Both the position numbers and the translations under genes were made by a program. DNA of 64,000 nucleotides, taken from contig JAUQQO010000028.1 in the NCBI GenBank assembly GCA_030549795.1, forward strand, positions 1 through 64,000, given 5' to 3'. This stretch comes from Pseudomonadota bacterium (lineage in GTDB: Bacteria; Pseudomonadota; Alphaproteobacteria; Geminicoccales; Geminicoccaceae). Under the pieces are notes generated by a model, which did not search any database, was not told the origin of the DNA, and saw only the letters and a list, made by a program, of their open reading frames with translations. Position 1 is the stretch's first letter, and every line of letters begins with the position of its first letter. Below, piece after piece: positions 27,558-51,454 of the stretch.

Positions 27558-28811
27558 ATGCAAAGCAAGCTCCTCATGTCCTCGGCCGTACTCGCCGCCG
27601 TCCTCTTGAGCGGGGCGGCGAGCGCGCAACAAAAGATCCGCATCGGCGTCACCGCGACGCTTGAGGGCACCTACACGGTCCTCGGCGAGGACGGCATGCG
27701 CGGGTTCGAGCTCGCGCTGCGCAAGTGGAACCGCAAGGCGGGCGGCAAAGATCTCGAGATCATCGTCGCCTCCACCGACGCCACGCCCGATTCGGCGATC
27801 CGCGCCGTGCGCAAGCTGGTCGAGCAGGACAAGGTCGATCTCGTCATCAGCCCGCTTTCCGGCTCCGAAGGCATCGCCGTGCGCGACTATGCGCACACGC
27901 AGCCGCAAATGACCTTCATCAACGCCGCCTCCGGGGCGATGGAGACGACCTTCGTCAACCCCGCCCCCAACTTCTTCCGCTGGAACATGGACGGCGCGCA
28001 GTGGCAGGCCGGCCTCGGTAGCTACATCTACAACGAAAAAGGCTACCGCAAGATCGCCACGGTCGGAGAAGACTACTCCTTCGTCTATACCCAGGTGTTC
28101 GGCCTCGCGGTCGAATTCTGCGGTCTGGGTGGCCAGATCACGCAGCGCTTCTGGGTACCGCTCGGCACCAAGGACTTCGCTTCGATCATCGCCGCCCTGC
28201 CCGATGATGTCGATGCCATCTATCTCGGGCTCGGCGGCGCCGATGCGGTGAACTTCCTCAACCAGTACGCCCAGGCGGGTGGCAACGCCAAGATCGTCGG
28301 CGGCTCGATCATGGTCGACCAGACCGTGCTCTCCTCCAAGGGGCGGGCCAAGGAGATCCTCAAAGGAGCGGTCGCCGCCTCCGGTGTCGCCGATACCTGG
28401 GAGGATCCGCGCTGGCAGGCGTTCGTGAAGGCCTACCGCGAGGCTTTCCCGCCCGAGAAGCGATTCGCCTCACCGTCCTTGCTCGCCGTGAACTACTACA
28501 ATTCGGCTTCGGCGACCTTCACCACCTTGGATCTGATTGGCGGTGACCTTTCCGACGGCCACAAGAAATTCCGCGAGACGATGGCCAAACTCGAGCTCGA
28601 TGCGCCGAACGGTAAGATCCGTCTCGATCACAATCGGCAAGCGATCGGCACCAACTTCGTCACCGAAGTGGTCGAGGACGCGCAGGGCAATCTCGTGAGC
28701 AAAGTCGTGAAAGTGGTCGAGAACGTCAACCAGACGCTCGGTCTTCCGCTCGAGAAGTTCAAAGCTCTCGGCCTGCCCAGCCGGACGACGCCGGAATGCC
28801 GGAAATACTGA
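27558..28811 (+). CDS. Branched-chain-amino-acid-type ABC solute-binding protein
   Basis: 417 residues, with a strong gggaggtgaagg site before the ATG. A Sec signal peptide (LMSSAVLAAVLLSGAASAQ) precedes a LivJ/LivK-type periplasmic binding domain: KIRIGVTATLEGTYTVLGED, VDLVISPLSGSEGIAVRDYA, PNFFRWNMDGAQWQAGLG, ATVGEDYSFVYTQVFG, DAIYLGLGGADAVNF. Such proteins bind amino acids, amides, aromatic acids or other small polar compounds. It is probably the receptor for the LivHMGF-like transporter encoded from 30995, and is the first gene of the large plus-strand cluster. Confidence 0.9.
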   Translation: MQSKLLMSSAVLAAVLLSGAASAQQKIRIGVTATLEGTYTVLGEDGMRGFELALRKWNRKAGGKDLEIIVASTDATPDSAIRAVRKLVEQDKVDLVISPLSGSEGIAVRDYAHTQPQMTFINAASGAMETTFVNPAPNFFRWNMDGAQWQAGLGSYIYNEKGYRKIATVGEDYSFVYTQVFGLAVEFCGLGGQITQRFWVPLGTKDFASIIAALPDDVDAIYLGLGGADAVNFLNQYAQAGGNAKIVGGSIMVDQTVLSSKGRAKEILKGAVAASGVADTWEDPRWQAFVKAYREAFPPEKRFASPSLLAVNYYNSASATFTTLDLIGGDLSDGHKKFRETMAKLELDAPNGKIRLDHNRQAIGTNFVTEVVEDAQGNLVSKVVKVVENVNQTLGLPLEKFKALGLPSRTTPECRKY

Positions 28812-28845
28812 GCCGTTCGCCCGGGGGCTGACGCGGGGCTCGGCT

Positions 28846-29982
28846 GTGATGAGCCTCATCCGCCATCTCACCCGCATCCATTTCGGTGAGGAGGTGGCGG
28901 CGGAAGCGATCGCAGCCGAGCTCGCCCGCCACGGGATCCGCCGCACGCTCGTGCTCGTCGACGGCGACCATGCCGAGCGCGTGCGCGTCGACGTCCTCCC
29001 GGCCTTGCCGGCTGCCGTCCGCCGACAGCTGGTGGTGGTCGCGACGGGAAGCGGCTGGCCCGAGGCGTCGACCCTGTTCGGCCTTGCCCGTCTCTTCCGC
29101 CGGTCGGGCTGTGACGGCATCCTCGCTGCCGGTGGGCGCGCGACCATCGAGCTCGCCAAGCTCGTGGCGGTCGTGGCGGGCGGGGTGGCCTCGCTCGACC
29201 AGCTCGCCGATCCGGCGCGGGCGCTTGTGTGTGCGCGTGCCCGTGTGCCCCTCATCGCTCTCGCAACCGGTGCCGGCAGCGGAGCGGAAGCGAGCTGCAC
29301 GGCGGCACTCGCCGATGAAGAGGGGCTGCCGGTTCGCCTGTGCGGGGAACATCTCGTCGCCGCGGCGGCGATCTTCGATCCCCTCCTCACTCTCGGGCTC
29401 GATGCGAGCGCGACTGCCGCTTTTGCCTTCGAGGCGCTCGCCCGCTGTGTGGAGGCGGTGGCCGCACCCGGCTATGACCCGCCCGCGCAGGCGGTGGCGC
29501 TCGATGGGATGGCGCGGATCGTCGCCGCTCTACCGGCGGCACTCGAGAACCCCGGCGATCGGCGGGCGCGCTGCGAGCTCATGGCGGGGGCTCTCGCCGC
29601 CGGCCTCGCCGGCTACCGCGGCCAGGGCGGGTTCGAGGCCGCGGCCTGGGCGCTGGCGCGCTTAGCCCGGCCCGCGCCGGCGCGCGGTGCGCTCGCCGCG
29701 GTGCTCTTGCCGCATCTGCTCGCCTTCAACGCGCCGGCGCTCGGCGAGCGTGGGCGGGCCCTGGCGCGCGCCCTCGCCGGCACCGAGCAGGGTGATCCGG
29801 CCGAAACGGTCGCCCGTCTCGCCGAGCGCTGCGGGCTGCCCCGACGCTTAAGCGAGCTCGGCATCGGCTTTGAGCTCCTCGAGCGCGCTTCGCTGCAGGC
29901 CGAGCGCGATCCTGCGAGCGGGACCAATCCGCGGCCGATCGCGCGCGCACACTATCAGGCTCTCTTCACCCAAGTGATCTGA
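28846..29982 (+). CDS. Iron-containing alcohol dehydrogenase homologue lacking metal ligands
   Basis: 378 residues. The overall pattern is that of the Fe-ADH/maleylacetate reductase superfamily: GGRATIELAKLVAV (96-109, counterpart of GGGS-x2-D-x-AK), ATGAGSGAEAS (140-150), a region aligning with the DAL-x-H-x-I-E helix, ARCELMAGALAAGLA and LLPHLLAFN. The four metal ligands Asp, His, His, His are replaced by Glu196, Arg200, Glu264 and Arg280. A metal-dependent hydride transfer like FucO is therefore unlikely; it may be a metal-free reductase, a different activity, or a ligand-binding relic. It follows the binding-protein gene by 34 nt. Confidence 0.7.
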   Translation: MMSLIRHLTRIHFGEEVAAEAIAAELARHGIRRTLVLVDGDHAERVRVDVLPALPAAVRRQLVVVATGSGWPEASTLFGLARLFRRSGCDGILAAGGRATIELAKLVAVVAGGVASLDQLADPARALVCARARVPLIALATGAGSGAEASCTAALADEEGLPVRLCGEHLVAAAAIFDPLLTLGLDASATAAFAFEALARCVEAVAAPGYDPPAQAVALDGMARIVAALPAALENPGDRRARCELMAGALAAGLAGYRGQGGFEAAAWALARLARPAPARGALAAVLLPHLLAFNAPALGERGRALARALAGTEQGDPAETVARLAERCGLPRRLSELGIGFELLERASLQAERDPASGTNPRPIARAHYQALFTQVI

Positions 29983-30075
29983 GCGGCTTCTTTTCGACCG
30001 TGCTTGTCCGTGCGCACCACCCTCCCCCATAAAAGTTCGCAAAAGCGGAAGACGCCAACGAACAGGGAGGCAATC

Positions 30076-30900
30076 ATGAGCGACGCGCTCGCCATCTGGC
30101 ATGGCGATTTCGGTCGGGCCTGCCTTTACCGGCTCGATCGGCCGATCCTCACCCATGCCCATCGCGAGGGCCATCTCATCTTCTTTCTCGACGGCGCGCC
30201 GGCCACCCTTGTGGTCGATGGCGAGCCCTGCCGGACCGACCGCGAGAGTGCGATCGCCATAAACCCTTGGGAGCCGCACGCTCACGAGCCGCATCGCCTC
30301 GGGGCCGCCGGTCTGTTCCTCGTGCTCTACGTGCGACCCGCCTGGTTCTTGGAAGCGAGCCGGCAGGCGAGCGGCGCGCTCGCCTTTGGGGCGCGTCGGA
30401 TCGAACTGTCGGGTGCCGTAGCACGGGCGGCCGAGCGGGTCGCCTCGGGCCTGCTCGAGCCGCTCTCGAGCGGATGGCTGGCGGCGCGGCTGCGCGATCT
30501 CGTCCAGGGTTGCTTCGATCAGTCCTGGCAATGGCGTCCCAATCCGCCACCCTTGCCGCCCAAGGCCGTGTTTCTCGACTTTCGGGTGCGCAAGGCTTTA
30601 AAAGCGATAGCTCGGCGCATGAGCGACGACATATGCTTCGATGATATTGCCCGCGAGGCTGGCTTATCGCGGCCGCACTTCTACAAAATGTTCAAAGACC
30701 AGCTCGGAGTAACGCCGCGGATCTATCGCAACGTGCTGCGCGTCGAACATGCGCTCGATCGGCTGATGTTTACTCGGCTCTCGGTCACCGACATCGCCGA
30801 AGAACTCGGCTTCGCTTGCCAGAGCAGCTTCACCCGCTTCTTCGCCGCCAACGTCGGCCTGTCCCCGAGCATCTATCGGGAGCGGGCGCGCGTGATCTAG
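30076..30900 (+). CDS. AraC-family transcriptional regulator
   Basis: 274 residues from the ATG at 30076, preceded by agggagg. An N-terminal cupin-like sensor region (THAHREGHLIFFLDG, INPWEPHAHEPH) precedes the two-HTH AraC domain (~180-274): MSDDICFDDIAREAGLSRPHFYKMFKDQLGVTP and LSVTDIAEELGFACQSSFTRFFAANVGLSP. It sits inside the cluster between the binding-protein and permease genes and is the only regulator in it, so it is the natural candidate to control the pathway in response to its substrate. Confidence 0.9.
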   Translation: MSDALAIWHGDFGRACLYRLDRPILTHAHREGHLIFFLDGAPATLVVDGEPCRTDRESAIAINPWEPHAHEPHRLGAAGLFLVLYVRPAWFLEASRQASGALAFGARRIELSGAVARAAERVASGLLEPLSSGWLAARLRDLVQGCFDQSWQWRPNPPPLPPKAVFLDFRVRKALKAIARRMSDDICFDDIAREAGLSRPHFYKMFKDQLGVTPRIYRNVLRVEHALDRLMFTRLSVTDIAEELGFACQSSFTRFFAANVGLSPSIYRERARVI

Positions 30901-30994
30901 CGCGTTTTAAAAGACTCGCCGTTATGGCGCCTCAGCCCGCAGCGCGCCACACTTCCGCTTGAGCAACCGCTTAGCGACGGGGAGGCTCGAGGCG

Positions 30995-32056
30995 GTGGCG
31001 CGCGTTCGGTTCGCGAACGCGGAAAGCACAAACGGGCGCAGTGCGCTTGCGGCATGGATCGAGCGCCGACCGCTGGCGGCACTGATGATCGCGCTTGCGA
31101 TCGTGATCTTCTTGTGGCTCGTGTTCGCCGACTGGTCGGATGAGCTCGAGCGCTGGCTCGGCCGCAAGCGCGTCTTCGTGAGCGCGCTTCTCAACGGGAT
31201 CACGCTCGGCGGGCTCTATTTCCTGGTCGCCGCCGGCTTTACCTTGATCTTTGGCCTTATGCGCAATGTCAACCTCGCGCATGGCTCGCTCTATCTCTTC
31301 GGCGGTTACCTCGGCTACACGACCGTTCAAGCCACGGGCCTCTGGCTGCCGGCCTTCCTCGTCGCCTTCGTGCTCGTAGGCCTTGCGGGTCTGCTCCTGC
31401 AAGTGCTGATCTTCCGCCACATGGAAGGTGAAGAGCTGCGTCAGACGCTGGTAACCATCGGTCTTTCGATCGTCTTTGCGGATCTCATGCTGTGGGTGTG
31501 GGGCGGTGACTTCTACCAGATCCCGACCCCGGACTGGCTCGCAGGTCCCATCGAGTTGCCGATCATTTTGGACGTGCGGCCGAATGGCGAGCCGATCTAT
31601 CTGCGCTATCCACGCGTGCGCTTGGTCATCTTCCTCGCTTCGGTTGTGCTCGGGCTCGTCTTGTGGCTCGCGATCAACCGCACGCGGGTGGGCATGCTCA
31701 TCCGCGCCGGGGTCGACGACCGCGCGATGCTCGCCGCCTCCGGTGTGCCGGTCCAGCTCCTCTTCGCGCTCGTCTTCGCCTTCGGTGCCGGGCTCGCCGG
31801 CATGGCGGGGATCGTCGGCGGCACCTTCCAGTCGCTGTCGCCCGGGGAGGATACCCGCTTTCTTCTCGCCTCGCTCGTGGTGGTGATCGTAGGCGGCATG
31901 GGCTCCATTCCCGGAGCGGCGCTGGGTGCGCTATTGATCGGCCTCGCCGAACAGTTCGGCTCTGTTTACGTGCCGACCTACGCCATCGTCTTCAGCTTCT
32001 TGATCATGGTCCTGGTCCTCGCCTTCCGGCCCCAGGGCCTCCTTGCCCTGCGCTGA
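30995..32056 (+). CDS. livH: LivH-type ABC permease
   Basis: 353 residues from a GTG with ggggagg 9 nt upstream (a TTG at 30959 is an alternative). An extra N-terminal membrane helix (LAALMIALAIVIFLWLVFA) precedes the canonical LivH core: LLNGITLGGLYFLVAAGFTLIFGLMRNVNLAHGSLY, LRQTLVTIGLSIVFADLM, NRTRVGMLIRAGVDDRAMLAASGV. It is an inner-membrane subunit of a branched-chain-amino-acid-type (HAAT) importer. LivM follows with a 4-nt gap. Confidence 0.92.
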   Translation: MARVRFANAESTNGRSALAAWIERRPLAALMIALAIVIFLWLVFADWSDELERWLGRKRVFVSALLNGITLGGLYFLVAAGFTLIFGLMRNVNLAHGSLYLFGGYLGYTTVQATGLWLPAFLVAFVLVGLAGLLLQVLIFRHMEGEELRQTLVTIGLSIVFADLMLWVWGGDFYQIPTPDWLAGPIELPIILDVRPNGEPIYLRYPRVRLVIFLASVVLGLVLWLAINRTRVGMLIRAGVDDRAMLAASGVPVQLLFALVFAFGAGLAGMAGIVGGTFQSLSPGEDTRFLLASLVVVIVGGMGSIPGAALGALLIGLAEQFGSVYVPTYAIVFSFLIMVLVLAFRPQGLLALR

Positions 32057-32060
32057 AGCC

Positions 32061-33116
32061 ATGGCCGCGGTTCGCGCGCGTGCGACCCCTTCCGCAGATG
32101 CCAAATACGAGGCTGCGCGCACCGGCGGCATTCCCGCTGCGGGATGGCTGCTCGCGCTCGTCCTCGTCATGATGCCGGCGATCGCCTCCGACTTCTTCCT
32201 CGTCCAGGTCTTCGGCTGGGCGTTTATCCTCGGCACGATCGCTCTCTCCTTGCAGTTTCTGGCCGGCTACGGTGGCATGGTGAGCCTCGTGCAGATGACC
32301 GTGGCCGGCTTCGCCGGCTACATGGTGGCGATTTTGGGCACTTCCGGGCTCACCCAGATCAGCTTGGGTTGGCCGTTCTGGCTCGCGGTGCCCGTAGCGA
32401 TTTTATTAGGCGTCCTCTTCGGCACCGTCTCGGGTGCCCTTGCCGTGCGCACGGCCGGCATCTACACGATCATGATCACGCTCGCGATCGCCGCCGCCTT
32501 CTTCTACTTCACGCGGCAAAACGAGACGGTCTTCGGCGGTTTTCTCGGCTTCAACGGCGTGCGCGCGCCGGTCTTTTGGGGGATCGATTGGCGCGCGCCG
32601 GTGCCCTTTTACTACCTCTGCTTGGGTTGGGCGGCGATCAGTTGGGGTCTCGTCGTTTGGGTGGCGCGCGCTCCCTTCGGCTTGGCGCTGCAGGGGATCC
32701 GCGACAATGCGCGGCGGATGGCGGCCTTGGGCTTCAACGTCACCGCCCACCGCATCGCCGCTTACGCCTTCGCCGCCTTTCTGGCCGCCCCGGCGGGTGT
32801 GCTCTTGACCTGGCTCAACGGCCAGATCGCACCCGGCACGGTCGGTATCGGCCCGGTGATCGACATCCTCGTCATCGCCGTGATCGGCGGTCTCGGCCGG
32901 CCGATCGGACCGTTCATCGGGGCGCTTCTCTACGTTCTCTTGCGCCTCTTCGCCATGGATCTGCTCGTAGCCCTAGGGCTCTCGGGCCAACGCTTCCAAC
33001 TCATCATCGGCTTGGGCTTTCTTTTGACCGTGCTCTTCTCGCCTGATGGCGTCTTGGGTCTGTGGGAGCGGTGGATTCGCCCGCGGCTGGTCGGCCGCGC
33101 CGGGGGAGGGCGCTGA
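32061..33116 (+). CDS. livM: LivM-type ABC permease
   Basis: 351 residues from the ATG at 32061. Multi-pass protein with the LivM core: VFGWAFILGTIALSLQFLAGYGGMVSLVQMTVAGFAGY, AVRTAGIYTIMITLAIAAAFFYF, FGLALQGIRDNARRMAALGFNV and IDILVIAVIGGLGRPIGPFIGA. Second membrane subunit of the HAAT-family importer. Its TGA overlaps the livG ATG. Confidence 0.92.
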   Translation: MAAVRARATPSADAKYEAARTGGIPAAGWLLALVLVMMPAIASDFFLVQVFGWAFILGTIALSLQFLAGYGGMVSLVQMTVAGFAGYMVAILGTSGLTQISLGWPFWLAVPVAILLGVLFGTVSGALAVRTAGIYTIMITLAIAAAFFYFTRQNETVFGGFLGFNGVRAPVFWGIDWRAPVPFYYLCLGWAAISWGLVVWVARAPFGLALQGIRDNARRMAALGFNVTAHRIAAYAFAAFLAAPAGVLLTWLNGQIAPGTVGIGPVIDILVIAVIGGLGRPIGPFIGALLYVLLRLFAMDLLVALGLSGQRFQLIIGLGFLLTVLFSPDGVLGLWERWIRPRLVGRAGGGR

Positions 33117-33904
33117 TGGCGACCGCGATCGCCGAGCGGCTGTCCGCTACGGGACAAGTGAACGCGCTCGAGCTCAGAGGCGTGACCAAATATTTCGGTG
33201 CTCTTGCCGCACTTTCGGATGTCACGCTGAGCGTGCGCCCCGGTGAGCGGCGGGCGATCTTGGGCTCGAACGGTGCCGGTAAGACGACGCTTCTCAACTG
33301 TATCACGGGAGACTTTTTCCCAACATCGGGTACCATTCGCTTTTTCGGTGAAGACGTCACCACCTTCCCGGCGCACGAGCGAATCCGCCGCGGGCTCAGG
33401 CGCACCTACCAGATCTCGCTTCTCTTCGGTGGGCTTTCCGTTCTCGACAATGTCTATCTCGCCTGCCTCGGCGTCTCGCGCGGGCGCTTTTCCTTCCTTC
33501 GCCCGCGCCGCGGCGACCCGCTGCTCGAGAGCGCCCGCGCGCTCGTCCACGCCGTCCACCTCGATGCGGTCGCCGACAAAAAGGTTGCAGAACTGGCGCA
33601 CGGCCAACAGCGCCAGCTCGAAGTCGCCCTCGCACTCGCCGGCGCGCCCCGCTTTCTCCTCTTCGACGAGCCGGCAGCCGGGCTGTCGCCGGCCGAGCGC
33701 GGCGAGCTCGTAGCGATCCTCAACAGCCTGCCATCGCACATCGGCTATGTGATCATCGAGCACGACATGGACGTGGCGCTGAGGGTGGTCGAGAGCGTCA
33801 CGCTCATGCACGAGGGGCGGATCTTCAAAGAGGGTACGCCCGCCGAGATCGAAAGCGACCCCGAAGTGCAAGAGCTCTATCTGGGCCACCGCCATGCCGC
33901 GTGA
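33116..33904 (+). CDS. livG: LivG-type ABC ATPase
   Basis: 262 residues; the ATG overlaps the livM stop. Walker A GSNGAGKTTLLNC, Q-loop LRRTYQISLLFGGLSV, signature-like LAHGQQRQLEVALALA, Walker B FLLFDEPAAGLSP, His switch IIEHDMDVAL. The signature is LAHGQQRQ rather than LSxGxQ, as is common in LivG proteins. It overlaps the start of the LivF fusion gene by 11 nt. Confidence 0.93.
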   Translation: MATAIAERLSATGQVNALELRGVTKYFGALAALSDVTLSVRPGERRAILGSNGAGKTTLLNCITGDFFPTSGTIRFFGEDVTTFPAHERIRRGLRRTYQISLLFGGLSVLDNVYLACLGVSRGRFSFLRPRRGDPLLESARALVHAVHLDAVADKKVAELAHGQQRQLEVALALAGAPRFLLFDEPAAGLSPAERGELVAILNSLPSHIGYVIIEHDMDVALRVVESVTLMHEGRIFKEGTPAEIESDPEVQELYLGHRHAA

Positions 33905-36143: not shown

Positions 36144-36145
36144 GC

Positions 36146-37012
36146 ATGGGGCGGATGGCGCGCGCAGCGGTTCTCGAGGCGCTTAGGGCCAAGCGGGCCC
36201 GCGGCGAGCCGATCATCGGCGGGGGAGCGGGCACCGGCATCTCGGCCAAAGCCGAAGAGGCGGGCGGGATCGACCTCATCATCCTCTACAACTCCGGTCG
36301 CTTCCGCATGGCAGGGCGAGGCTCGCTCGCCGGGCTCATGCCCTATGGCGATGCCAATGCGATCGTGCTCGAGCTCGCCCGCGAAGTGTTGCCGATCGTC
36401 ACCCGCACGCCGGTGTTGGCCGGGGTGTGCGCGAGCGATCCCTTCCGGGACATCGACCTGTTCTTAGACGAGCTCGCTCGGCTCGGCTTTTCGGGAGTGC
36501 AGAACTTCCCGACCGTCGGCCTCATCGACGGCACCTTCCGCCAGCATCTCGAAGAGACCGGGATGGGCTATGGCTGCGAGGTCGCGCTCGTGCGCCGCGC
36601 CCGGGCCAAGGATCTGTTGACGACACCTTACGTGTTTTCGGCCGAAGATGCGCGCGCCATGGCCGAGGCGGGGGCCGATCTCATCGTCTGCCACCTCGGT
36701 CTTACGGTGGGCGGCACGATCGGTGCCAAATCGGCACTTCCGCTCGCCGAGGCACCGGCGCTCGTCGATGCCTGGGCGCAAGCGGCGCGGGCGATCCGCC
36801 CGGAGATCCTCGTGCTCGTCCACGGTGGGCCGGTTGCCACGCCTGAGCAGGCCCGCTTCGTGCTCGAGCGCAGCCGGCATTGCGACGGTTTTTACGGGGC
36901 CTCCTCGATCGAGCGCCTGCCGGTCGAGCGGGCCATCGCCGAAGAAGTCCGCAAGTTCAAAACGATCCGCCTGGCCCATTCGGGCATGGCACAGGGAGGC
37001 GAGGGCGCATGA
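36146..37012 (+). CDS. Phosphoenolpyruvate-hydrolase-family TIM-barrel protein
   Basis: 288 residues from the ATG at 36146, 2 nt after the fusion gene stop. Family features: [81 protein letters not shown] and [19 protein letters not shown]. The family (PEP hydrolase-like) matches the C-terminal half of plant Tm-1 proteins, whose N-terminal half matches the UPF0261 domain just upstream. The reaction is not established. Its TGA overlaps the flotillin ATG. Confidence 0.85.
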
Positions 37013-41261: not shown

Positions 41262-41264
41262 GCC

Positions 41265-42083: not shown

Positions 42084-42092
42084 GGAAAGGCC

Positions 42093-42569
42093 ATGGCAAC
42101 GGCGGTGGAATTTACGCTCAACGGCAACGCGGTGGCGGCGATCGCCGAGCCGGGCGAGACTTTGCTGTCGGTGTTGCGCAACCGGCTCGGTGACACCTCG
42201 CCCAAGGCCGGCTGTCTGCAGGGGACCTGCGGGGCCTGCACCGTACTGGTCGACGGCGAGCCCGTCCTCTCCTGTCTTCTGCTCGCAGATGCGGCAGCCG
42301 GCCGGCACGTCGAAACCGTGCGCGGTCTCGCCCAGGGACCGCAACTCCATCCCTTACAAGAGGCCTTCATGGAGCGCTTCGCCGCCCAGTGCGGCTTTTG
42401 CACACCGGGCATGCTCATGGCCGCCAAAGCTCTGCTCGATCACAACCGCAACCCCACCCGGGCCGAGGTGATCGAGGCGATCTCCGGCAATGTGTGCCGC
42501 TGCACCGGCTACCTGCCGATCATCGAGGCGATCCTCGAGGCGGCACGGCGCTTATCGGCGCGAGGGTGA
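42093..42569 (+). CDS. Molybdenum hydroxylase 2Fe-2S subunit (CoxS-like)
   Basis: 158 residues, with gaggaaagg upstream of the ATG. All eight cluster Cys are present: the plant-type [2Fe-2S] set Cys41, Cys46, Cys49, Cys61 (GCLQGTCGACTVLVDG) and the second cluster Cys100, Cys103, Cys135, Cys137 (QCGFCTPG, NVCRCTGY). It passes electrons from the Mo centre to FAD. Confidence 0.96.
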   Translation: MATAVEFTLNGNAVAAIAEPGETLLSVLRNRLGDTSPKAGCLQGTCGACTVLVDGEPVLSCLLLADAAAGRHVETVRGLAQGPQLHPLQEAFMERFAAQCGFCTPGMLMAAKALLDHNRNPTRAEVIEAISGNVCRCTGYLPIIEAILEAARRLSARG

Positions 42570-42575
42570 CCCACC

Positions 42576-44249: not shown

Positions 44250-44261
44250 GGAAGACGAGCC

Positions 44262-45269
44262 ATGGCCAAGCACCGCGGTCGCGGCGTCGCCTCGGTCAAC
44301 TATCCGATCGGGATGAACCTCGGCGGCGATCCGAGCCAGGCGCTCGTGCACGCCACACCGACCGGCAAGTTCGTCGTCACCCTCTCTTCGATCGACCTCG
44401 GGCAGGGGATGAAGTCGGTCACCCGCCAGCTCGCCGCCGAAACGCTCGGGGTGCCGATCGAGGACGTGCACGTCGATACCGGCGATTCCGACACCGGGCC
44501 GCACTGTATGGGCAGTTTCGCCTCGCGCGGAACGCATCGTGCCGGCAATGCGGTGATCGCCGCAGCGCGCGAGGCGCGTGAAGTGCTCTTGGAAGTGGCA
44601 GCCGAAGAGCTCGAAGTCGATCCGCGCGATCTCGAGCTCGACGGGCGCGGTAACGTGCGCGTGAAGGGTGCGCCTGCGCGCACGATCAGCGTGCGCGAGG
44701 TGGCGCAAGCGGCGCATTTTCGCCGCGGCAAGTCGATCTCGGGCCGCGGCATGTTCCTCGTCCCGCCCTCCGATGTCGATCCCGAGACCGGCGCCATGCG
44801 GCCGGTCACCACTTACGCCCACGCCTGCATGATCGTCGAAGTCGAAGTCGATGACGAGACCGGAGAAGTGACGGTACTGTCGATCAAAGCCGCCTACGAG
44901 ATCGGGCGCGCACTCAACATCGGCCTCGTCGAGCAGCAATTGGTGGGCGGGGCGTGGATGGGCATCTCGCACGCGCTCTTCGAGACGGTGGAACCCTATT
45001 ATCCCGACCGCGCGCATGGGCCGGTCGATTTCAATACCTACCTCATGCCGGGGCCGGGCGACATGTGCCCGGTCGAGATCGAGATCATCGAGCGTCCGGC
45101 CCTCGATGGGCCCTATGGGGCCAAAGGCATCGGGGAGATGTGCGCGACCCCGCCCATCCCGGCGATCGCCAATGCGATCGAAGACGCCATCGGCGTGCGC
45201 ATCACCGAGATGCCCTTTACGCCCGAGAAGATCTTGCGCGCCCTCGATGCCAAGCGGGCGGCTCGGTGA
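44262..45269 (+). CDS. Molybdenum hydroxylase large subunit, C-terminal half (split gene)
   Basis: 335 residues from an ATG with ggaagacg upstream. It contains the second Mo-binding half of CoxL/XdhA: RGRGVASVNYPIGMNLGGD, LSSIDLGQGMKSVTRQLAAETLG, MGSFASRGTHRAGNAV, and GPYGAKGIGEMCATPP with the catalytic Glu292. Alone it would lack half of the cofactor site, so it must assemble with the upstream product. All key residues are conserved, so this looks like a functional two-polypeptide subunit rather than a pseudogene. Overlaps the MoxR-like gene by 1 nt. Confidence 0.88.
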   Translation: MAKHRGRGVASVNYPIGMNLGGDPSQALVHATPTGKFVVTLSSIDLGQGMKSVTRQLAAETLGVPIEDVHVDTGDSDTGPHCMGSFASRGTHRAGNAVIAAAREAREVLLEVAAEELEVDPRDLELDGRGNVRVKGAPARTISVREVAQAAHFRRGKSISGRGMFLVPPSDVDPETGAMRPVTTYAHACMIVEVEVDDETGEVTVLSIKAAYEIGRALNIGLVEQQLVGGAWMGISHALFETVEPYYPDRAHGPVDFNTYLMPGPGDMCPVEIEIIERPALDGPYGAKGIGEMCATPPIPAIANAIEDAIGVRITEMPFTPEKILRALDAKRAAR

Positions 45270-46150
45270 TGGCGCCCGCACCGGCGATCTTCGGTCTTGA
45301 AAGCCCGCAGGCGCTCGCCCGCGCGCTAACCGATGCCTTCTACCTCGCGGATGAAGAGCTCGCGACCGCCGCGTGGCTCGCCCTTGCCCTCGGCAAGCCC
45401 CTGCTCCTCGAAGGGGCGCCGGGGGTGGGCAAGACGGAGGCGGCAAAAGCGCTCGCCGCAATCCTCGGACGCGGCCTTGTGCGGCTGCAATGCTACGAGG
45501 GGATCGATGCCGCGCACGCGCTCTACGAGTGGAACCACCCGCGCCAGCTCGTGGAGCTGCGCCGTGCCCAAGACCGACCGATCGACATCTGGAGCGATGA
45601 GTTCTTGATCGAACGGCCGCTGCTCGCTGTACTGCGGCGCCCGCGCGAGCTCGTGCTCTTGGTCGACGAAGTCGATCGCTCGGATCAAGAATTCGAGGCC
45701 TTGCTGCTCGAGTTCCTCTCCGATTTCACCATCTCCATTCCCGAGCGGGGTACCTTGCGCGCGAGCGAGCGCCCGGTGGTGATCTTGACCTCCAACCGCA
45801 CGCGCGAGCTGCACGAGGCGCTCCGCCGCCGCTGCGTGTACCATTGGATCGACTATCCCACGCCCGAACAGGAAGCGCGCATCATCATGCTGCGCGCTTC
45901 ACAGGTGGCGGAGCGCACCGCGCGCGCGGTTGCGCGCGCCGTTGCACGGCTGCGCAGCGAACCGCTCGTCAAGCCACCCGGCATCGCGGAAGCGGTGGAG
46001 TGGGCTCAGGCGATCGAGCTGTTGCTCGCGGGCGGCACGGCCTGGCCCGAGGCCTTTCGCCGCGCGCTCGGCGTGGCCATCAAGGACGAAGAGGACCTCG
46101 CCCATGTGCGAGCGCGGCTCGATGCCGTGCTCGAGGAGCGTGAGCGGTGA
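45269..46150 (+). CDS. MoxR-family AAA+ ATPase (CoxD-like)
   Basis: 293 residues; the ATG overlaps the preceding TGA. AAA+ motifs: Walker A GAPGVGKTE (49-57), Walker B LVDEVDR (131-137), sensor-1 ILTSNRT, arginine finger region ALRRRCVYHWIDYPTPEQE. In the carboxydotrophic cox cluster CoxD is the ATPase that helps mature the active site of the Mo enzyme together with CoxE. The adjacent VWA gene makes the same pairing here. Overlaps the next gene by 4 nt. Confidence 0.9.
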   Translation: MAPAPAIFGLESPQALARALTDAFYLADEELATAAWLALALGKPLLLEGAPGVGKTEAAKALAAILGRGLVRLQCYEGIDAAHALYEWNHPRQLVELRRAQDRPIDIWSDEFLIERPLLAVLRRPRELVLLVDEVDRSDQEFEALLLEFLSDFTISIPERGTLRASERPVVILTSNRTRELHEALRRRCVYHWIDYPTPEQEARIIMLRASQVAERTARAVARAVARLRSEPLVKPPGIAEAVEWAQAIELLLAGGTAWPEAFRRALGVAIKDEEDLAHVRARLDAVLEERER

Positions 46151-47280
46151 GCGGTGCGCGCTTGTGGCCGCCGCCGCTGCCGCGGGCTGCCGAGCCCTTT
46201 TTGGACTTTGCGCATCTGTTGCGCGGCCACGGCTTTGCTGTCGCACCCGAGCAGCTGGTGTCGTTTTTGGCCGCGATCGAGCTTTTGGGCCCGCGCTCGA
46301 TCGTGGATGTGCGCCGCGCTGCGGTTGCCACGCTCGCACCTCCGCGGGAGCGCATCGAGGAGTTCAACGCCCTCTTCGATGCCTTTTTCTTCGGCCGCGC
46401 GCCGATCGCCCAAGAGGAGGAGCGCGAAGAGGACGAGCCCTTGCGCGTGGAAGAGGAAGGCCCCGGTTCGTTGGCGGAGCTCGCGGTGGTGGAAGGAGAG
46501 GCGAGCGGCCACGCGGCAAGCCCGCTCGAATCGACATCGCTTCGGCGGTTTCGCGCGAGCGCGAGCACAGCCTTCCTCGAGCGCTTTCGGCGCCAGGCCC
46601 TCAAGCGCCTCCCGCGGCGGCGAAGTGCGCTGCTTATGCGCTCAAAGCGCGGCCCGATCCTGGACCTTGCTCGCACCTTAAGACGCGCGCAGGCGCGCGC
46701 AGGCGAGCCGATCGCTTTGTTCTGGCGGACGCGGCGGACAAGGCAGCGCCGGATTGTGCTGTTGATCGATGTCTCGGCCTCGATGAAGGAGCACACCGAG
46801 ACCAATCTGCGGTTTGCGCACGCGCTTGCGCGCGCTGCCCAGCGCATCGAGGTGCTCACCTTCGGTACCCGCTTGACGCGCATCACCCGCGCCATGCGGC
46901 GGCCGCTTCTCACACAAGCCCTCGAGCGTGCCGCGCGCACCGTGCGCGATTGGGACGGCGGCACCCGTATCGGCGAAGCGCTCGAGGCGCTGTTGCGGGT
47001 GCCGCGCCTTGTGGGCTTCCTGCGCGGGGCCCTCGTGCTCGTGGTCTCCGATGGGCTCGAGCGCGGCGATCCCGAGCGCTTGGTCGGGGCTGTGCGCCGG
47101 CTGCGCCGCCTCGCCTGGCGGCTCGTGTGGCTCTCGCCTTTGGCCGCGACCCCCGGCTACGTTCCCGCGACTGCCGCCATGGCCGCGATTCGTCCGCTGC
47201 TGCACGCGCTGTTGCCGGCGGGCGGGCTCGATTCCTTGTGCCGGCAAGTGCTCGCGCTCGCTCGTGAGGTGCCGCGATGA
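46147..47280 (+). CDS. VWA-domain protein (CoxE-like)
   Basis: 377 residues from a GTG overlapping the CoxD-like stop. An N-terminal helical part with a Glu-rich acidic stretch (~89-106) is followed by a C-terminal von Willebrand A-like domain with the MIDAS motif DVSAS (208-212), GGTRIGEALEALL and VLVVSDGLERGDPE. CoxE-type proteins partner with MoxR ATPases in metal-centre assembly. Ends with a 4-nt overlap on the amidohydrolase ATG. Confidence 0.9.
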   Translation: MSGARLWPPPLPRAAEPFLDFAHLLRGHGFAVAPEQLVSFLAAIELLGPRSIVDVRRAAVATLAPPRERIEEFNALFDAFFFGRAPIAQEEEREEDEPLRVEEEGPGSLAELAVVEGEASGHAASPLESTSLRRFRASASTAFLERFRRQALKRLPRRRSALLMRSKRGPILDLARTLRRAQARAGEPIALFWRTRRTRQRRIVLLIDVSASMKEHTETNLRFAHALARAAQRIEVLTFGTRLTRITRAMRRPLLTQALERAARTVRDWDGGTRIGEALEALLRVPRLVGFLRGALVLVVSDGLERGDPERLVGAVRRLRRLAWRLVWLSPLAATPGYVPATAAMAAIRPLLHALLPAGGLDSLCRQVLALAREVPR

Positions 47281-48167
47281 TCTACCTCGTCGACGCGCAT
47301 TTCCACATCTGGCGGCAGGCCGATCTGCCCTGGCTTGTGGGTCCGATGCAGCCGCGCATCTTCGGCGCTTACGAGCCGCTGCGGCGCGATTATCCGATCG
47401 AGGAATATCTCCGCGATGTGGCGGATATGGGTGTCGGGCGCGCGGTCTATGTGCAGGCGAACTGGGATCCGGCGCGTGCTCTCGAGGAAGTGCTCTTTGT
47501 CGAGGCCGAGGCCGCGCGCGCGGCTTTTCCGGTGGCGATCACGGCTTTTGCCGACCTTACGGTTGCAGATGCCACCGCTGCGCTCGAAGCCCTGGCCCGG
47601 CACCGCTCGGTGCGGGCCATCCGCTGCCAACTGCACTGGCACCCCAACCCGCAATACCGCTTCGCGCCGCGCCCCGATCTCGCCGCCGATCCGCGCCTGA
47701 TCGCCAATGTGGCTAAGCTCGCCCGCTTCGGCTTCGCCTTCGAACTCCAGCTCTTCGCCCTGCAGGCGGAAAGCGGGCTCAAGCTCGTGCACGCCTGCCC
47801 CGATGTCACCTTCATTCTCGTGCACGCGCTCATGCGGGAAGAGGAGACGCCGGAAGGGATCGCCCGCTGGCGGCGAGCGCTCGCACGGTTCGCCGCGGCG
47901 CCTAATGTCGTGGTCAAGCTCTCGGGGCTCAACACGTTCGTACGGCGGCTCGATCCACCGCTGATCGCCGACATCACCCGCACGGTGGTCGATCTCTTCG
48001 GGCCCGAGCGCTGTCTTTGGGGCTCGAACTTCCCGATTGAGAAGATGTGGACCGATTACCGCGCGCTTCTCCAGGCGCAGCGCGCTGCTCTCGCCGATCT
48101 GCCGCAAGCCGCGCAAGAGGCGATCTTCGCCAAGACCGCAGAACGCGTCTACCGTCTGCAGAACTGA
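47277..48167 (+). CDS. Amidohydrolase-2 / COG3618-type metal-dependent hydrolase
   Basis: 296 residues. N-terminal metal motif VDAHFHIW (His8, His10), VYVQANWDPARALEE, IRCQLHWHPNPQY, VVKLSGL and the C-terminal LWGSNFPIEKM with the conserved GSNFP. COG3618 members hydrolyse lactones or cyclic intermediates (for example pyrone dicarboxylate or sugar lactones). In this cluster it would act downstream of the Mo hydroxylase. Substrate unknown. Confidence 0.85.
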   Translation: MIYLVDAHFHIWRQADLPWLVGPMQPRIFGAYEPLRRDYPIEEYLRDVADMGVGRAVYVQANWDPARALEEVLFVEAEAARAAFPVAITAFADLTVADATAALEALARHRSVRAIRCQLHWHPNPQYRFAPRPDLAADPRLIANVAKLARFGFAFELQLFALQAESGLKLVHACPDVTFILVHALMREEETPEGIARWRRALARFAAAPNVVVKLSGLNTFVRRLDPPLIADITRTVVDLFGPERCLWGSNFPIEKMWTDYRALLQAQRAALADLPQAAQEAIFAKTAERVYRLQN

Positions 48168-48183
48168 GAGGGGAGGCTCTTCG

Positions 48184-49032
48184 ATGCCACTCGAGATCAA
48201 AATTTTAGACTATGGCGATATCGAGCTCGAATCGAGCTTTCTCGTTCTGGGGCGCGATTGCGGCCGCACGCGCCGCGTACCCACGCTCGGCTTTCTCATC
48301 TTGGGCGGGCCGTGGCCGGTTCTCGTCGACACCGGCTACCGCTCGAATGCGATCATGGAGACGCTCGGGATGCGCGGGCTCCAGTTCCACGAGAATTTGA
48401 TCGAGAACCAGCTCGCCCGCCACGGCCTCAAACTGAGCGACATCCGCTACATCCTACACACCCATCTCCACATCGACCACGCGGGTAAGGACGACCTCTT
48501 TCCCATGTCGACTACGGTGGTGGTCAATCGCCGCGAGCTCGAATACTCGGTCTCGGGTCTCATGCATCCGCAATATCCCGCTCCCGACATCAAACATCTG
48601 ATCGATCGCCTGCACACCAAGAACGCCTTGCGACTGCTCGATCTCGAGCTCAGCGGTCCGATCGAGATCTTCCCCGGCCTTTATTGCGAGGCGGCGGGAG
48701 CCCACACCGAGGGCTCGATGAACGTGCACGTCCACACCGCCGACGGTGTGGCGACGATTTGCGGCGACGTGATCTACGATTTCAACGATCAAATCATCGA
48801 ACCGTTCCGCATCACCCAAGAAATGGAACCACAAGTCACCGGCAATCACGGCACGAGCAAACGCCAGGAAAAAGCGGCGATCAAAAAGCTGCTCGCCAAC
48901 GCGCGCTATTTGTTGCCGGTGCACGACCGTCCGGCCAAGATCGAGGGCGGCCGGGTGGTGGGCCGGCTGCACGATCAGGTACCGGGTCCCGTCGTCTCCT
49001 CGCTGCCATCGCGGCCCTGGTTCCCAGCTTGA
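48184..49032 (+). CDS. Metallo-beta-lactamase-fold hydrolase (AHL-lactonase-like)
   Basis: 282 residues from the ATG at 48184, after a gggaggct site. The zinc motif HTHLHIDHAG (92-101) matches HxHxDH; further ligands are probably in GAHTEGSMNVHV and CGDVIYDFNDQ. The overall pattern resembles N-acyl-homoserine-lactone lactonases and other MBL-fold lactonases or amidases. As part of the catabolic run, a second lactone or cyclic-amide opening step is plausible. Confidence 0.85.
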   Translation: MPLEIKILDYGDIELESSFLVLGRDCGRTRRVPTLGFLILGGPWPVLVDTGYRSNAIMETLGMRGLQFHENLIENQLARHGLKLSDIRYILHTHLHIDHAGKDDLFPMSTTVVVNRRELEYSVSGLMHPQYPAPDIKHLIDRLHTKNALRLLDLELSGPIEIFPGLYCEAAGAHTEGSMNVHVHTADGVATICGDVIYDFNDQIIEPFRITQEMEPQVTGNHGTSKRQEKAAIKKLLANARYLLPVHDRPAKIEGGRVVGRLHDQVPGPVVSSLPSRPWFPA

Positions 49033-49043
49033 AGGGAGGGGCG

Positions 49044-50630
49044 ATGGTGCACGAGCTCCGCGCCCCGGCCTTCCGCGAGCTGATCGATCCGGCAGAACCG
49101 GTCGAACAGCTCGCCACCGGCTTTACGTTCACCGAAGGACCGGTCTGGCACCCGATCGAGCACTATCTCCTCTTTTCGGATATGCCGGCGGACGTGCGCC
49201 GGCGTTGGAGCCCCGCGGAAGGGGTGATCGAGGTCGCCCGCCCGTCGAACAAGGGCAACGGGCTCACCTTCGATGCCGAGCTCAACCTCATCGTCTGCGA
49301 ACATGCGACGAGCGCGCTCGTGCGCATCCGCCGCGACGGACGCCGTGAAGTGCTCGCTTCGCACTTCGAGGGCAAAGAGCTCAACAGCCCCAACGATGTC
49401 TGTGTGCGCTCGGACGGTTCGATCTACTTCACCGATCCCTGGTACGGCAGGATGCCGGTCTATGGGATCGAGCGGCCGCGCGTTCTCGGCTTTCAAGGCG
49501 TCTATCGCGTCGTTCCCGGCAAGCCGCCCGAGCTTTTGGTCGCGCGCTATCTCTTCGATCAGCCCAACGGGCTGTGCTTTTCCCCCGATGAGCGCCTGCT
49601 TTTCGTCAACGACACCGAGCAAGCCCTGATCCGGGTCTTTGAAGTGCGCGCCGACGGCACGCTCGGCTCCGGACGCATCTTCGCTTCCGGGATCCGCTCC
49701 GAACTCGAGCCGGGCGTGCCCGATGGGATGAAGTGCGACGAGCGCGGCAACATCTGGTGCACGGGGCCGGGAGGCGTGTGGGTGTTCGACCCCGAGGGCC
49801 GCCATCTCGGGATCCTGCGGGTGCCGGAACTCGTCGCCAACCTGGCCTGGGGCGGGCCCGACTGGCATACGCTCTTCTTGACCGCCTCGCGTTCGCTCTA
49901 TGCCGTGCGCACCAAAGTCGGCCCGCGCCGCGAGCCCTTCATGCGCGCAGCCGCACCGCGCGCACTGGCCAGCACCCCGCACCCGGCGCGGGCCGCCGTG
50001 CGGGCCATCCACGTCGAGGAGGGCTTCGTCCTCGATCCCGCCCGCTGCGCGCTCCTCATCCAGGACATGCAAAACGATGTGGTCATGGAGGGCGGCGCCT
50101 TCGCCGCCTCCGGTGCTCCGCAGCACTGCCGCGAGCAGAACGCCATCGCCAATATCGCCCGCCTTGCGGCGCACTGTCGGGCGATCGGGGTGCCGGTGAT
50201 CCACATCTGGTTCGTGGTCGAACCCGGCGCTCCTGGCCTTACGCTCAACTGCCCGCTCTTCGAGGGTCTCGTTGCGGCCAAGGGACTGGTGCGCGGAACT
50301 TGGGGGGCGGCCCCGGTCGCCGGCCTCGAGCCGCAGCCGGGCGATTTCCTGGTCGAGAAGATGCGCATGAGCGCGTGGGAGGGCACCAAGCTCGAGACCA
50401 TCCTCAAAGCGCTCGGCCGCGACATCCTCATCAACACCGGGGCCTGGACGAACATGGCGATCGAGCACACCGCGCGCACCGGCGCCGACAAGGGTTATGT
50501 GATAGTGGTGCCGGAAGATGCCTGTGCCACCATGAACGCCGATTGGCACCGCGCATCGATCGACTATGCGCTCAAAAACGTCGCGGCGGTGACCACCACC
50601 GATGCGGTGATCCACGCGCTCGGCGGCTAG
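49044..50630 (+). CDS. SMP-30/gluconolactonase fused to an isochorismatase-like domain lacking Cys
   Basis: 528 residues from an ATG after gaagggaggg. Residues ~20-295 are an SMP-30/gluconolactonase beta-propeller (FTFTEGPVWHPIEHYLLFSD with Glu31, SPNDVCVRSDGSIYFTDPW, QPNGLCFSPDE, PDGMKCDERGNIWCTGPGG). Residues ~330-528 are an isochorismatase-like cysteine hydrolase with Asp341 (LLIQDMQND) and Lys439 (VEKMRMSAWEGT). The nucleophile position in GAWTNMAIEHTAR is Ala472 where the family has Cys. So the propeller may be active while the second domain is probably not a normal cysteine amidase. The frame is intact across the junction. Confidence 0.85.
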   Translation: MVHELRAPAFRELIDPAEPVEQLATGFTFTEGPVWHPIEHYLLFSDMPADVRRRWSPAEGVIEVARPSNKGNGLTFDAELNLIVCEHATSALVRIRRDGRREVLASHFEGKELNSPNDVCVRSDGSIYFTDPWYGRMPVYGIERPRVLGFQGVYRVVPGKPPELLVARYLFDQPNGLCFSPDERLLFVNDTEQALIRVFEVRADGTLGSGRIFASGIRSELEPGVPDGMKCDERGNIWCTGPGGVWVFDPEGRHLGILRVPELVANLAWGGPDWHTLFLTASRSLYAVRTKVGPRREPFMRAAAPRALASTPHPARAAVRAIHVEEGFVLDPARCALLIQDMQNDVVMEGGAFAASGAPQHCREQNAIANIARLAAHCRAIGVPVIHIWFVVEPGAPGLTLNCPLFEGLVAAKGLVRGTWGAAPVAGLEPQPGDFLVEKMRMSAWEGTKLETILKALGRDILINTGAWTNMAIEHTARTGADKGYVIVVPEDACATMNADWHRASIDYALKNVAAVTTTDAVIHALGG

Positions 50631-50674
50631 CTCGGCGGAGCAAGGCAGCAGCGGCGGTCTAAGAGGAGGGGACG

Positions 50675-51454
50675 ATGAGCGAAGCCATGACGGTGCGCGC
50701 TCGGCTCGCGCGGGGCGAGAGGGTGGTTGGGACCATGGTCTTCGAGCTCTTCACCCCCGGCCTCCCGGCTATCCTCACCGCTGCCGGGCTCGACTTCGCG
50801 GTGCTCGACACCGAGCACAGCGGGGTGGGCATCGACACGCTTAAGACCCTCTTCGCCTGTGGCCGCGGCCTTCCGCTCGAGCTCTACGTGCGCGTGCCGG
50901 AAAAGTCCTATGCCGCGGTGGCAACGGTGATGGATGCCGGGGCCAAGGGGATCCTCGTGCCCATGCTGGAGACGCCGGAGGAAGCACGCGCGCTCGTCGA
51001 ATGGGTGCGCTATCGGCCCGAGGGCAAGCGCGGCTGCGCCTTCGGCATGGCCCACGACGATTATCGCGTCCACGATGTCGTCGCCTATATGGCGGAAGCC
51101 AACCGCCGCAATCTGGTCATGGGCCTTATTGAGACCCGAAAAGGCATCGCGAATGTGGAGGCGATCGCCGCCACGCCGGGATTGGATGTCCTGTGGCTCG
51201 GTCATTTCGATCTGACCAACGACATGGGGATCACCGGCCAATTCGACCATCCCGAGTTCTGGGCGGCGGTCGATCGGTTGGTGGCCGCGGCGCGCGCCCA
51301 CGGCAAGGTGCTCGCTGCCGCCGACGCCAACCCCGACTATCTCGCCAAGCTCGCAGCCAAGGGCTTTCGCATGCTCGGCTTCGGCCCCGACATCGCGGTC
51401 TTGCGCGAGGGGTTGCGGCAAGGAGCCGAGCGGCTGCGCACGCTCGCACGATAG
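50675..51454 (+). CDS. HpcH/HpaI-family class II aldolase
   Basis: 259 residues, with aagaggagggg before the ATG (an internal Met at 50687 is possible). Motifs: FAVLDTEHSGVGIDTLK with catalytic His48, AKGILVPMLETPEEAR, RGCAFGMAHDDYR, metal ligands Glu153 (GLIETRKG) and Asp179 (LWLGHFDLTND). The family cleaves 4-hydroxy-2-oxo acids to pyruvate and an aldehyde at the end of many aromatic or heterocycle pathways. It is the last gene of the plus-strand cluster and supports a catabolic role for it. Confidence 0.92.
   Translation: MSEAMTVRARLARGERVVGTMVFELFTPGLPAILTAAGLDFAVLDTEHSGVGIDTLKTLFACGRGLPLELYVRVPEKSYAAVATVMDAGAKGILVPMLETPEEARALVEWVRYRPEGKRGCAFGMAHDDYRVHDVVAYMAEANRRNLVMGLIETRKGIANVEAIAATPGLDVLWLGHFDLTNDMGITGQFDHPEFWAAVDRLVAAARAHGKVLAAADANPDYLAKLAAKGFRMLGFGPDIAVLREGLRQGAERLRTLAR

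Follow-up and report, generated by a model that had tools for sequence, protein, structure and literature searches.

The window, our name for the whole stretch of DNA analysed, comprises positions 1–64,000 of contig JAUQQO010000028.1 (assembly GCA_030549795.1) from a 3.16-Mb genome of the alphaproteobacterial family Geminicoccaceae. Between 27558 and 51454 it carries a cluster of 21 open frames, all on the plus strand, which run from a LivK-type binding protein to an HpcH/HpaI-type aldolase and include an importer, a long flotillin and a predicted molybdenum (Mo) hydroxylase whose large subunit is split into MoN and MoC. The cluster is real and part of a strongly conserved, apparently undescribed system, and it very probably works as one functional unit. 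What is new is a conserved peptide at the end of MoN, together with the Pro-rich linker that carries it; the split itself is of an already known kind. We propose a conserved uptake-and-oxidation system on a membrane scaffold, with the enzyme docked by the MoN peptide, and consider the chances of this full proposal to be about even.

Gene order in related genomes

A query with MoC gave a named collection of 565 relatives (perhaps without the window's own record), and the loci of the best 80 were retrieved; 56 of these 80 loci are from Bradyrhizobium. We also used samples of 240 genomes from the class, 6 from the genus and 398 from the phylum, the window's own genome being counted each time. MoC matches were found in 5 of the 240, all 6 and 16 of the 398 genomes, respectively. 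The closest named relatives among the best 80 of the 565 are Geminicoccaceae metagenome-assembled genomes (MAGs), and MoC is 96% identical in isolate SKYB19.

Fourteen genes, from a fusion of a LivF-type ATPase with UPF0261 (LivF::UPF0261) to a fusion of SMP-30 with an isochorismatase domain (SMP30::isochorismatase), were counted at hits of at least 40% identity in the 53 named loci whose flanks are complete. All 14 are present, on one strand and colinear in 49 of these loci, which do not amount to 53 independent events, since 43 of the 53 are from Bradyrhizobium. The exceptions are L043 (complete, in another order), L070 (without Amidohydro_2) and L057 and L077 (several of the 14 genes missing). 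L025, which has wrong coordinates, was left out of the alignment, and L030 was kept in all counts.

In genome G561, the order of the window is complete for the 20 genes from LivK to SMP30::isochorismatase, and G271 differs only in lacking the iron-containing alcohol dehydrogenase (Fe-ADH). Fe-ADH is also missing from G131, where HpcH lies 1.3 kb away from its neighbouring gene, and from G148, where the contig stops inside the Amidohydro_2 gene; G159 lacks HpcH and the gene for the metallo-beta-lactamase-fold hydrolase (MBL). In 11 of the 398 phylum genomes, LivF::UPF0261 and MoC lie on one contig, 9–10 kb apart. The gene order kept in these five genomes and in the 49 loci is therefore more than chance. 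Searches of open-licence PMC papers, as far as their available text goes, gave no description of this gene combination; the original prediction did not recognize it as a described pathway either.

Neither HpcH nor Fe-ADH belongs to the conserved set of genes. Fe-ADH is patchy, with hits in G159, G561 and G542 and none in the stretches of G131, G148 and G271. HpcH (50675–51454) is present in the window, where it was placed by NCBIfam alone, with HpaI as its best model, below cut-off; only two of the 80 retrieved loci have it, and these are from close kin of the window. It is thus a neighbour of the cluster, and the originally predicted route ending in a pyruvate-releasing aldolase is not supported.

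A conserved peptide at the C-terminus of MoN

MoN ends in a variable Pro/Ala/Arg-rich stretch (61–106 residues in 15 rows of the alignment; 43920–44213 in the window) followed by a conserved peptide (44214–44246), the putative docking tag. RFSSVFGTRRR or a close form of it closes MoN in 78 of 82 loci, the misses being L043, L020, L021 and L030; L016 and L040, both among these 82 rows, seem to be one contig (60564 bases each). Variants are RxSSLLGTRRR in loci labelled Gammaproteobacteria, RFSSISG[TL]RRR in L065 and L018, and SSLSGFRRR in L148, which lies outside the 82 rows. Over 15 diverse rows, the mean pairwise identity is 80% for the last 11 residues, 71% for the enzyme core and 37% for the linker. 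In the loci of this count, the same terminal peptide is found on none of the other 20 cluster genes.

A degenerate DNA pattern encoding the peptide has a single match in each of five of the six genus genomes and none in G240; the reversed pattern, which served as a control, has one occurrence, in one of the six. In an AlphaFold2 model of MoN (26-row alignment, mean pLDDT (predicted local distance difference test) 70.1), residues 469–557, which make up linker and tip, have a pLDDT below 50.

Platform and oxidase module in variant loci

Relatives carry the genes of the cluster in different combinations. The LivF::UPF0261 query matches across both parts in 14 of the 398 phylum genomes; LivF::UPF0261 and MoC are on different contigs in G290 and G353, G028 has the fusion without MoC, and G399, G500 and G554 have MoC without the fusion. 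We call the window kind of locus type A. Type B loci (G028, G105, G079, G122, G290 and G353) have LivHMKG, LivF::UPF0261, flotillin and two SRPBCC genes, and none of the six carries the split Mo genes of type A at the locus; in G122, an unsplit Mo enzyme is encoded on the opposite strand. G290 and G353 lack the PEP hydrolase gene at their type B loci. In G105, G028 and G122, the three examined by Pfam, SRPBCC2 and a zinc-ADH-type reductase form one fusion protein. Genes for an amidohydrolase, an alpha/beta hydrolase and an FAA hydrolase lie near the locus of G105, and genes for an amidohydrolase and an aspartate-dehydrogenase-like protein near that of G028. The reductase fusions (L111:12336–13805, L114:7521–8993 and L113:8155–9609) link SRPBCC directly to a redox enzyme, and G079 has an extra stand-alone pair of UPF0261 and PEP hydrolase beside its platform locus (L115:697–2814).

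Type C, seen in one genome (G542), combines a 967-residue flotillin and two SRPBCC-like frames with MBL, an aldehyde dehydrogenase and Fe-ADH; neither PEP hydrolase nor Mo genes were found in the fetched stretch. The C-terminal part of its LivF (L154:7644–9701) resembles a decayed UPF0261 that Pfam does not recognize. Type D loci (G500, G353, G399, G290 and G554) comprise AraC, one SRPBCC, the FAD and Fe-S subunits, MoN, MoC, CoxD, CoxE and Amidohydro_2; a different importer is nearby in four of the five, and flotillin is absent from all five loci. Because types A–D combine these gene sets separately, we distinguish two modules: a platform of importer, UPF0261, flotillin and SRPBCC, and a second one of Mo hydroxylase, CoxD/CoxE and Amidohydro_2.

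The original prediction named independent scattering of the genes as an outcome that would refute it, and the relatives were examined for this. Three Gammaproteobacteria-labelled genomes (L041, L048 and L077) have no flotillin at the Mo locus, yet each has a long one elsewhere (frames of 1291, 979 and 946 residues). The second loci carry PEP hydrolase and both SRPBCC genes in all three and the LivF::UPF0261 fusion in two of the three fetched stretches; L077, whose Mo locus lacks the FAD gene, has an FAD homologue at its second locus (L190). These genomes split the cluster but keep both halves though unlinked, which argues for joint function. Single halves also occur: G028 has the platform only, and G399, G500 and G554 have the Mo half only. 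The conserved neighbourhoods support the original view that uptake, a membrane scaffold, a Mo hydroxylase and hydrolases are joined in one functional unit.

The tail is absent from all five type D loci, none of which has a local flotillin and all of which have CoxD/CoxE. The flotillin model PF15975 has no match in the genomes of G399, G500, G554 or G196. A tree was calculated from the MoN core and MoC (45 rows, tail excluded; midpoint root, for drawing only); L006, L003 and L113 have very long branches, with a risk of long-branch artefacts, and the order of the paralogs is unsure. The tailed rows form one side of a branch (support 88/87), followed by L043 and then by type D, while the tail-less G196 lies further out, towards the unsplit paralogs. 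Since the tailed rows thus lie on one side of a branch inside the flotillin-bearing lineage, the likeliest course is a single gain of the tail, at a time when the Mo module was already joined to the flotillin platform. Such a history would fit a docking peptide, yet it is one event and no proof.

Two groupings in the tree may be recorded here. The Gammaproteobacteria-labelled MAGs L041, L048, L057 and L077, with the tail RxSSLLGTRRR, form a clade inside an otherwise alphaproteobacterial tree. The contig of L038, labelled Terriglobia (Acidobacteriota), lies deep in the alphaproteobacterial MoN/MoC clade, by mis-binning or transfer.

The split Mo hydroxylase

The Mo enzyme is encoded by genes for an FAD subunit (41265–42083; FAD_binding_5 and CO_deh_flav_C), a [2Fe-2S] subunit (42093–42569; Fer2 and Fer2_2), MoN (42576–44249; Ald_Xan_dh_C and MoCoBD_1) and MoC (44262–45269; MoCoBD_2), followed by a CoxD/MadB-type AAA+ ATPase (45269–46150; AAA_5, with NF047784 below cut-off) and a CoxE-type VWA protein (46147–47280; VWA_CoxE). 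The 2Fe-2S, FAD, MoCoBD_1 and MoCoBD_2 domains are thus found in one cluster, and all 85 MoC loci keep a KGxGE stretch, whose Glu we take to be the catalytic Glu of the xanthine-oxidase family. The enzyme is predicted to be a hydroxylase of this family. The active-site loop of CoxL is AYXCSFR; an MRGFG motif in 82 of 82 loci and scores far below cut-off with the CoxL models argue against a CO dehydrogenase. The NCBIfam hits to oxidase, hydrolases and binding protein are all below cut-off and name no substrate; the heterocyclic or aromatic substrate suggested in the original prediction is a candidate at most.

MoN and MoC are separate frames in all 78 loci with both hits (L030 with a partial N-part of 38% identity), and the same split is seen in the five type D loci and in G196. 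The best PDB matches are NdhL (3hrd_A) for MoN and NdhM (3hrd_B) for MoC, both from nicotinate dehydrogenase. Because the homologues are split too and match NdhL and NdhM best, the split is old and belongs to a known kind. The original prediction was right about the split, which is not peculiar to this locus. Two other causes were rejected: a local frameshift or assembly error, because the split recurs in 78 of 78 loci, and a mobile insertion causing split or tail, because DNA 43850–44280 is single-copy in the genome (E 0.001; 218 first-look candidates, 40 scored, self-match only) and the homologues are split too.

Flotillin, SRPBCC proteins and importer

The flotillin (37009–40374) has 1121 residues, with Band_7 at 42–194 and Flot at 958–1073 (Pfam) and a coiled coil of 11/44-residue periodicity between the SPFH and Flot regions; it is the sole PF15975 match in its genome. 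In the middle region, a period of 44 residues is strongest in seven of seven loci, and one of 11 residues ranks in the top five in six of the seven. Counted from the first aligned residue, the length is 917–1155 residues in 66 complete loci. In the class sample, where frames were counted from stop to stop, the family matches in 32 of the 240 genomes and common frames have 540–620 residues. All five frames of at least 900 residues over cut-off are in LivF::UPF0261 clusters (G000, G131, G148, G159 and G028); G001 has one 956-residue frame whose match is below cut-off. According to the available text of PMC11260169, human flotillin builds a basket with a width of 32 nm, a height of 22 nm and a helical wall one layer thick. 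The longer coiled coil of the window protein should give a taller wall, of up to about 105 nm if its roughly 700 residues, at 0.15 nm each, formed one continuous helix.

The two following genes encode SRPBCC proteins of 146 residues (40375–40815; Polyketide_cyc2, model pLDDT 95.7) and 148 residues (40815–41261; Polyketide_cyc2). The original prediction of an SRPBCC pair stands, but CoxG-like is not borne out: at E 0.001, Pfam finds only Polyketide_cyc2 (PF10604) and Polyketide_cyc in the pair and no COXG. The fold neighbours of the SRPBCC1 model are XoxI, YPO0625 and the plant PYR/PYL receptors; the fold is broad, and we draw no substrate from it.

The HAAT/Liv importer is complete according to Pfam. 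It consists of the LivK-type periplasmic binding protein (27558–28811, 417 residues; Peripla_BP_6, with HAAT-type binding proteins among the PDB matches), the LivH-type permease (30959–32056, TTG start uncertain; BPD_transp_2), the LivM-type permease (32061–33116; BPD_transp_2), the LivG-type ATPase (33116–33904; ABC_tran plus BCA_ABC_TP_C) and LivF::UPF0261 (33894–36143; ABC_tran 38–171, UPF0261 338–506, UPF0261_C 523–735). NCBIfam models of urea and branched-chain importers score below cut-off. The UPF0261 part (about 34905–36098) corresponds to the N-terminal half of Tm-1 and is matched by the Tm-1 structures 3wry and 3wrw. Next to it lies the gene for a PEP_hydrolase-like TIM barrel of 288 residues (36146–37012), homologous to the C-terminal half of Tm-1 (PF09370 at 6e-124; 2p10, Mll9387). 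Both members of this Tm-1 pair are present in 51 of the 53 fully flanked loci.

Hydrolases and remaining genes

The Amidohydrolase_2 family hydrolase (47277–48167; PF04909) has L-fucono-1,5-lactonase as its nearest NCBIfam model, far below cut-off, and its HxHxW start motif is kept in 72 of 76 loci, cut loci being counted as misses. For MBL (48184–49032; PF00753), the nearest models are acyl-homoserine-lactone (AHL) lactonase and pyridoxo-lactonase, again below cut-off; HxHxDH is kept in 68 of 69 loci, the miss being a cut contig. In SMP30::isochorismatase (49044–50630; SGL 29–282, Isochorismatase 335–520), the SMP-30 part has its nearest chains in proteins named gluconolactonase (3e5z, 3dr2). 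As the nearest models or chains of all three are of lactonase type, a lactone intermediate is a reasonable guess and no more than that.

RutB-type cysteine amidohydrolases use an Asp-Lys-Cys triad. Aligned with RutB, the isochorismatase domain keeps the Asp and Lys in 68 of 68 loci, whereas the Cys column holds Ser in 67 of the 68 and Ala in the window. Since the catalytic Cys is absent, the domain is unlikely to be a classical amidase, and it may be a non-cysteine member conserved for something else. The 'ring-opening or lactone hydrolases' of the original prediction thus fare unevenly: lactonase-like matches are found, if below cut-off, ring-opening is one reading among others, and the Cys is absent from the isochorismatase domain. 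MBL is 95–98% identical in the near kin L026, L027 (a cut piece) and L028, where the other cluster genes are 63–96% identical, reflecting either stronger constraint or recent exchange.

Two genes lie between LivK and LivH. Fe-ADH (28849–29982) is 4-hydroxybutyrate-dehydrogenase-like below cut-off (NF058672, 221 bits against a cut-off of 500), and the AraC-type regulator (30076–30900; HTH_18) has a weak cupin match, also below cut-off. A tRNA-Thr (GGT) on the minus strand (51680–51755), directly after the cluster, is a possible boundary. Scans for sigma-70-type consensus promoters and for terminators gave nothing above shuffled sequences that bears on a single transcription unit.

The original description of a 24-kb one-strand cluster holds in coordinates and strand. 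Packing is tight, with at most 16 nt between genes at 16 of the 20 junctions, but 7 of the 20 overlap rather than most. Pfam agrees with the predicted importer (Peripla_BP_6, two BPD_transp_2, two ABC_tran), AraC regulator and giant flotillin, with the Mo hydroxylase domains on separate genes together with the AAA ATPase and the CoxE VWA protein, and with the Amidohydro_2, metallo-beta-lactamase-fold and SMP-30 hydrolases. Overlooked were the Fe-ADH gene, the fusion of LivF to a complete UPF0261 protein with the PEP_hydrolase gene behind it, and the isochorismatase domain fused onto SMP-30. As an interpretation, the functional unit survives and the observation itself is confirmed, but the aldolase end does not survive.

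A possible mechanism and its alternatives

From this gene content, we infer the following route. The HAAT/Liv importer would take up a small organic compound, and UPF0261 on the second ATPase, with the adjoining PEP-hydrolase-like TIM barrel, may tether a cytosolic step to the importer. The flotillin, with its very long periodic coil, would form a tall basket at the membrane, where the two SRPBCC proteins might handle a hydrophobic ligand or quinone. The NdhL/NdhM-type hydroxylase, presumably matured by the CoxD/CoxE-type proteins, would oxidize the substrate while the MoN terminal peptide, on its flexible linker, docks the oxidase to the scaffold; the lactonase-like hydrolases may then open the oxidation product. 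Catabolic use is probable, and a catabolic route, as originally predicted, is kept as the likeliest sense of the cluster. That the tail holds the enzyme at flotillin or membrane is slightly favoured over its not doing so, and we suggest that it is a docking peptide for the flotillin basket.

Several observations weigh against this proposal. L043 has the flotillin platform and no tail; the tail is therefore not essential. In G290 and G353, the Mo genes are tail-less and flotillin is found at the separate type B locus. L030, from the window's genus, has a 223-residue fragment directly before a MoC of 88% identity; this fragment is 38% identical to MoN and tail-less, and the tail pattern is missing from a single genus genome, G240, which seemingly holds the L030 contig. 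The history of the tail is also that of the flotillin, so that their association amounts to few independent events, the branch support of 88/87 for the tailed rows is moderate, and the locus sample is skewed (56 of 80 from Bradyrhizobium). The model of MoN did not include MoC and is of low confidence in some core stretches too; the height of the basket is extrapolated. Finally, the peptide could instead bind the membrane or another cluster protein. The MoN-like piece of L030 (1–674) may be a divergent or paralogous N-terminal half or part of a chimeric contig.

The best-surviving alternative, which we nevertheless consider unlikely, is an ordinary catabolic operon with flotillin as a generic membrane organizer and the MoN tail as a neutral or solubility extension. 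Flotillins are widespread (32 of the 240 class genomes), each single family of the cluster is already known, and some relatives have the Mo module complete but for the tail. However, the tip shows higher conservation than the enzyme core, and the linker drifts, which a neutral extension does not account for well. The flotillin is also unusually long, class frames of at least 900 residues over cut-off being confined to LivF::UPF0261 clusters, and genomes in which the two halves are unlinked retain both.

Less probable still is a tail that acts, without involvement of flotillin, as a basic amphipathic membrane anchor and places the oxidase at the quinone pool. The basic end with hydrophobic residues suits such an anchor, and according to the available text of PMC4240915, electron transfer by CO dehydrogenase is believed to require contact with the membrane; yet the near-invariant SS and G of the tip exceed what an anchor needs, and the type D loci, which have no flotillin at the locus, are tail-less. 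That the tail is recognized by the CoxD/CoxE maturation pair, rather than by flotillin or membrane, is improbable: the pair adjoins in the tailed loci whose contig reaches far enough, but five tail-less loci keep CoxD (67–71% identity) and CoxE (45–48%), as does L043, and the pair therefore presumably works on tail-less MoN there.

The docking proposal has a bolder extension, which we regard as speculative and rather unlikely: the flotillin basket over the importer, with its exceptionally long helical wall, might be a membrane-attached catabolic compartment, its enzymes loaded by an RFSSVFGTRRR-type cargo peptide. If so, the substrate would be oxidized inside or at the basket before reaching the cytosol, and the platform would be reused with the Mo hydroxylase, with the SRPBCC::reductase and other hydrolases, or with an aldehyde dehydrogenase. 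As the cluster is found in many Bradyrhizobium, which are root symbionts, the substrate may matter in soil or near roots; the share of 56 of 80 refers to the retrieved loci.

Comparison with known systems

Type C resembles the blc/Att gamma-butyrolactone operon, in which BlcB is of Fe-ADH type, BlcC of MBL-hydrolase type and BlcA of aldehyde-dehydrogenase type. All three families occur in both, a likeness by family only, and we know of no flotillin or SRPBCC in the blc operon.

The closest structural relative of the Mo enzyme is 3hrd, which we take to be the nicotinate dehydrogenase NdhLMFS of Eubacterium barkeri. Its large subunit is made of two chains, as in MoN/MoC, but NdhL has 425 residues against the 557 of MoN and therefore no room for a tail of the MoN type. 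To our knowledge, NdhLMFS has no flotillin or SRPBCC context, and the genes neighbouring MoN and MoC do not appear to point to nicotinate as the substrate.

The aerobic CO dehydrogenase cluster (coxMSLDEFG) shares FAD, Fe-S and Mo subunits and CoxD/CoxE-type genes with the window, where, unlike in the cox cluster, the large subunit is split and the SRPBCC pair matches Polyketide_cyc2 instead of COXG; no CoxF was recognized among the 21 window genes. CoxG, which carries an SRPBCC-type site, has been proposed from Oligotropha mutants to recruit CO dehydrogenase to the membrane, as far as the available text of PMC4240915 goes.

Both halves of tomato Tm-1 and plant Tm-1-like proteins are present in the window. 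In plants, UPF0261 and the TIM barrel are one protein, whereas in the window UPF0261 is joined to LivF and the barrel has a gene of its own. The two halves co-evolve in bacteria, according to the available text of PMC5028733, and no link to an importer ATPase was seen in the available text of the open-licence papers naming UPF0261. The locus gives the UPF0261/Tm-1 proteins a clear genomic partner, the importer ATPase.

The SPFH (Band_7) and Flot domains of the flotillins of functional membrane microdomains are also present in the window protein. Common bacterial flotillins in the class sample are about half as long, and the window flotillin is fixed in a cluster with a transporter and an oxidase. 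Flotillins are seen mostly as general organizers of membrane microdomains, and we know of few fixed clients. Because a redox enzyme, a transporter and a possible docking peptide accompany the flotillin in this one cluster, client recruitment becomes testable by deleting eleven codons. Should the compartment exist, it would be scaffold-based and distinct from encapsulins and from shell-protein microcompartments.

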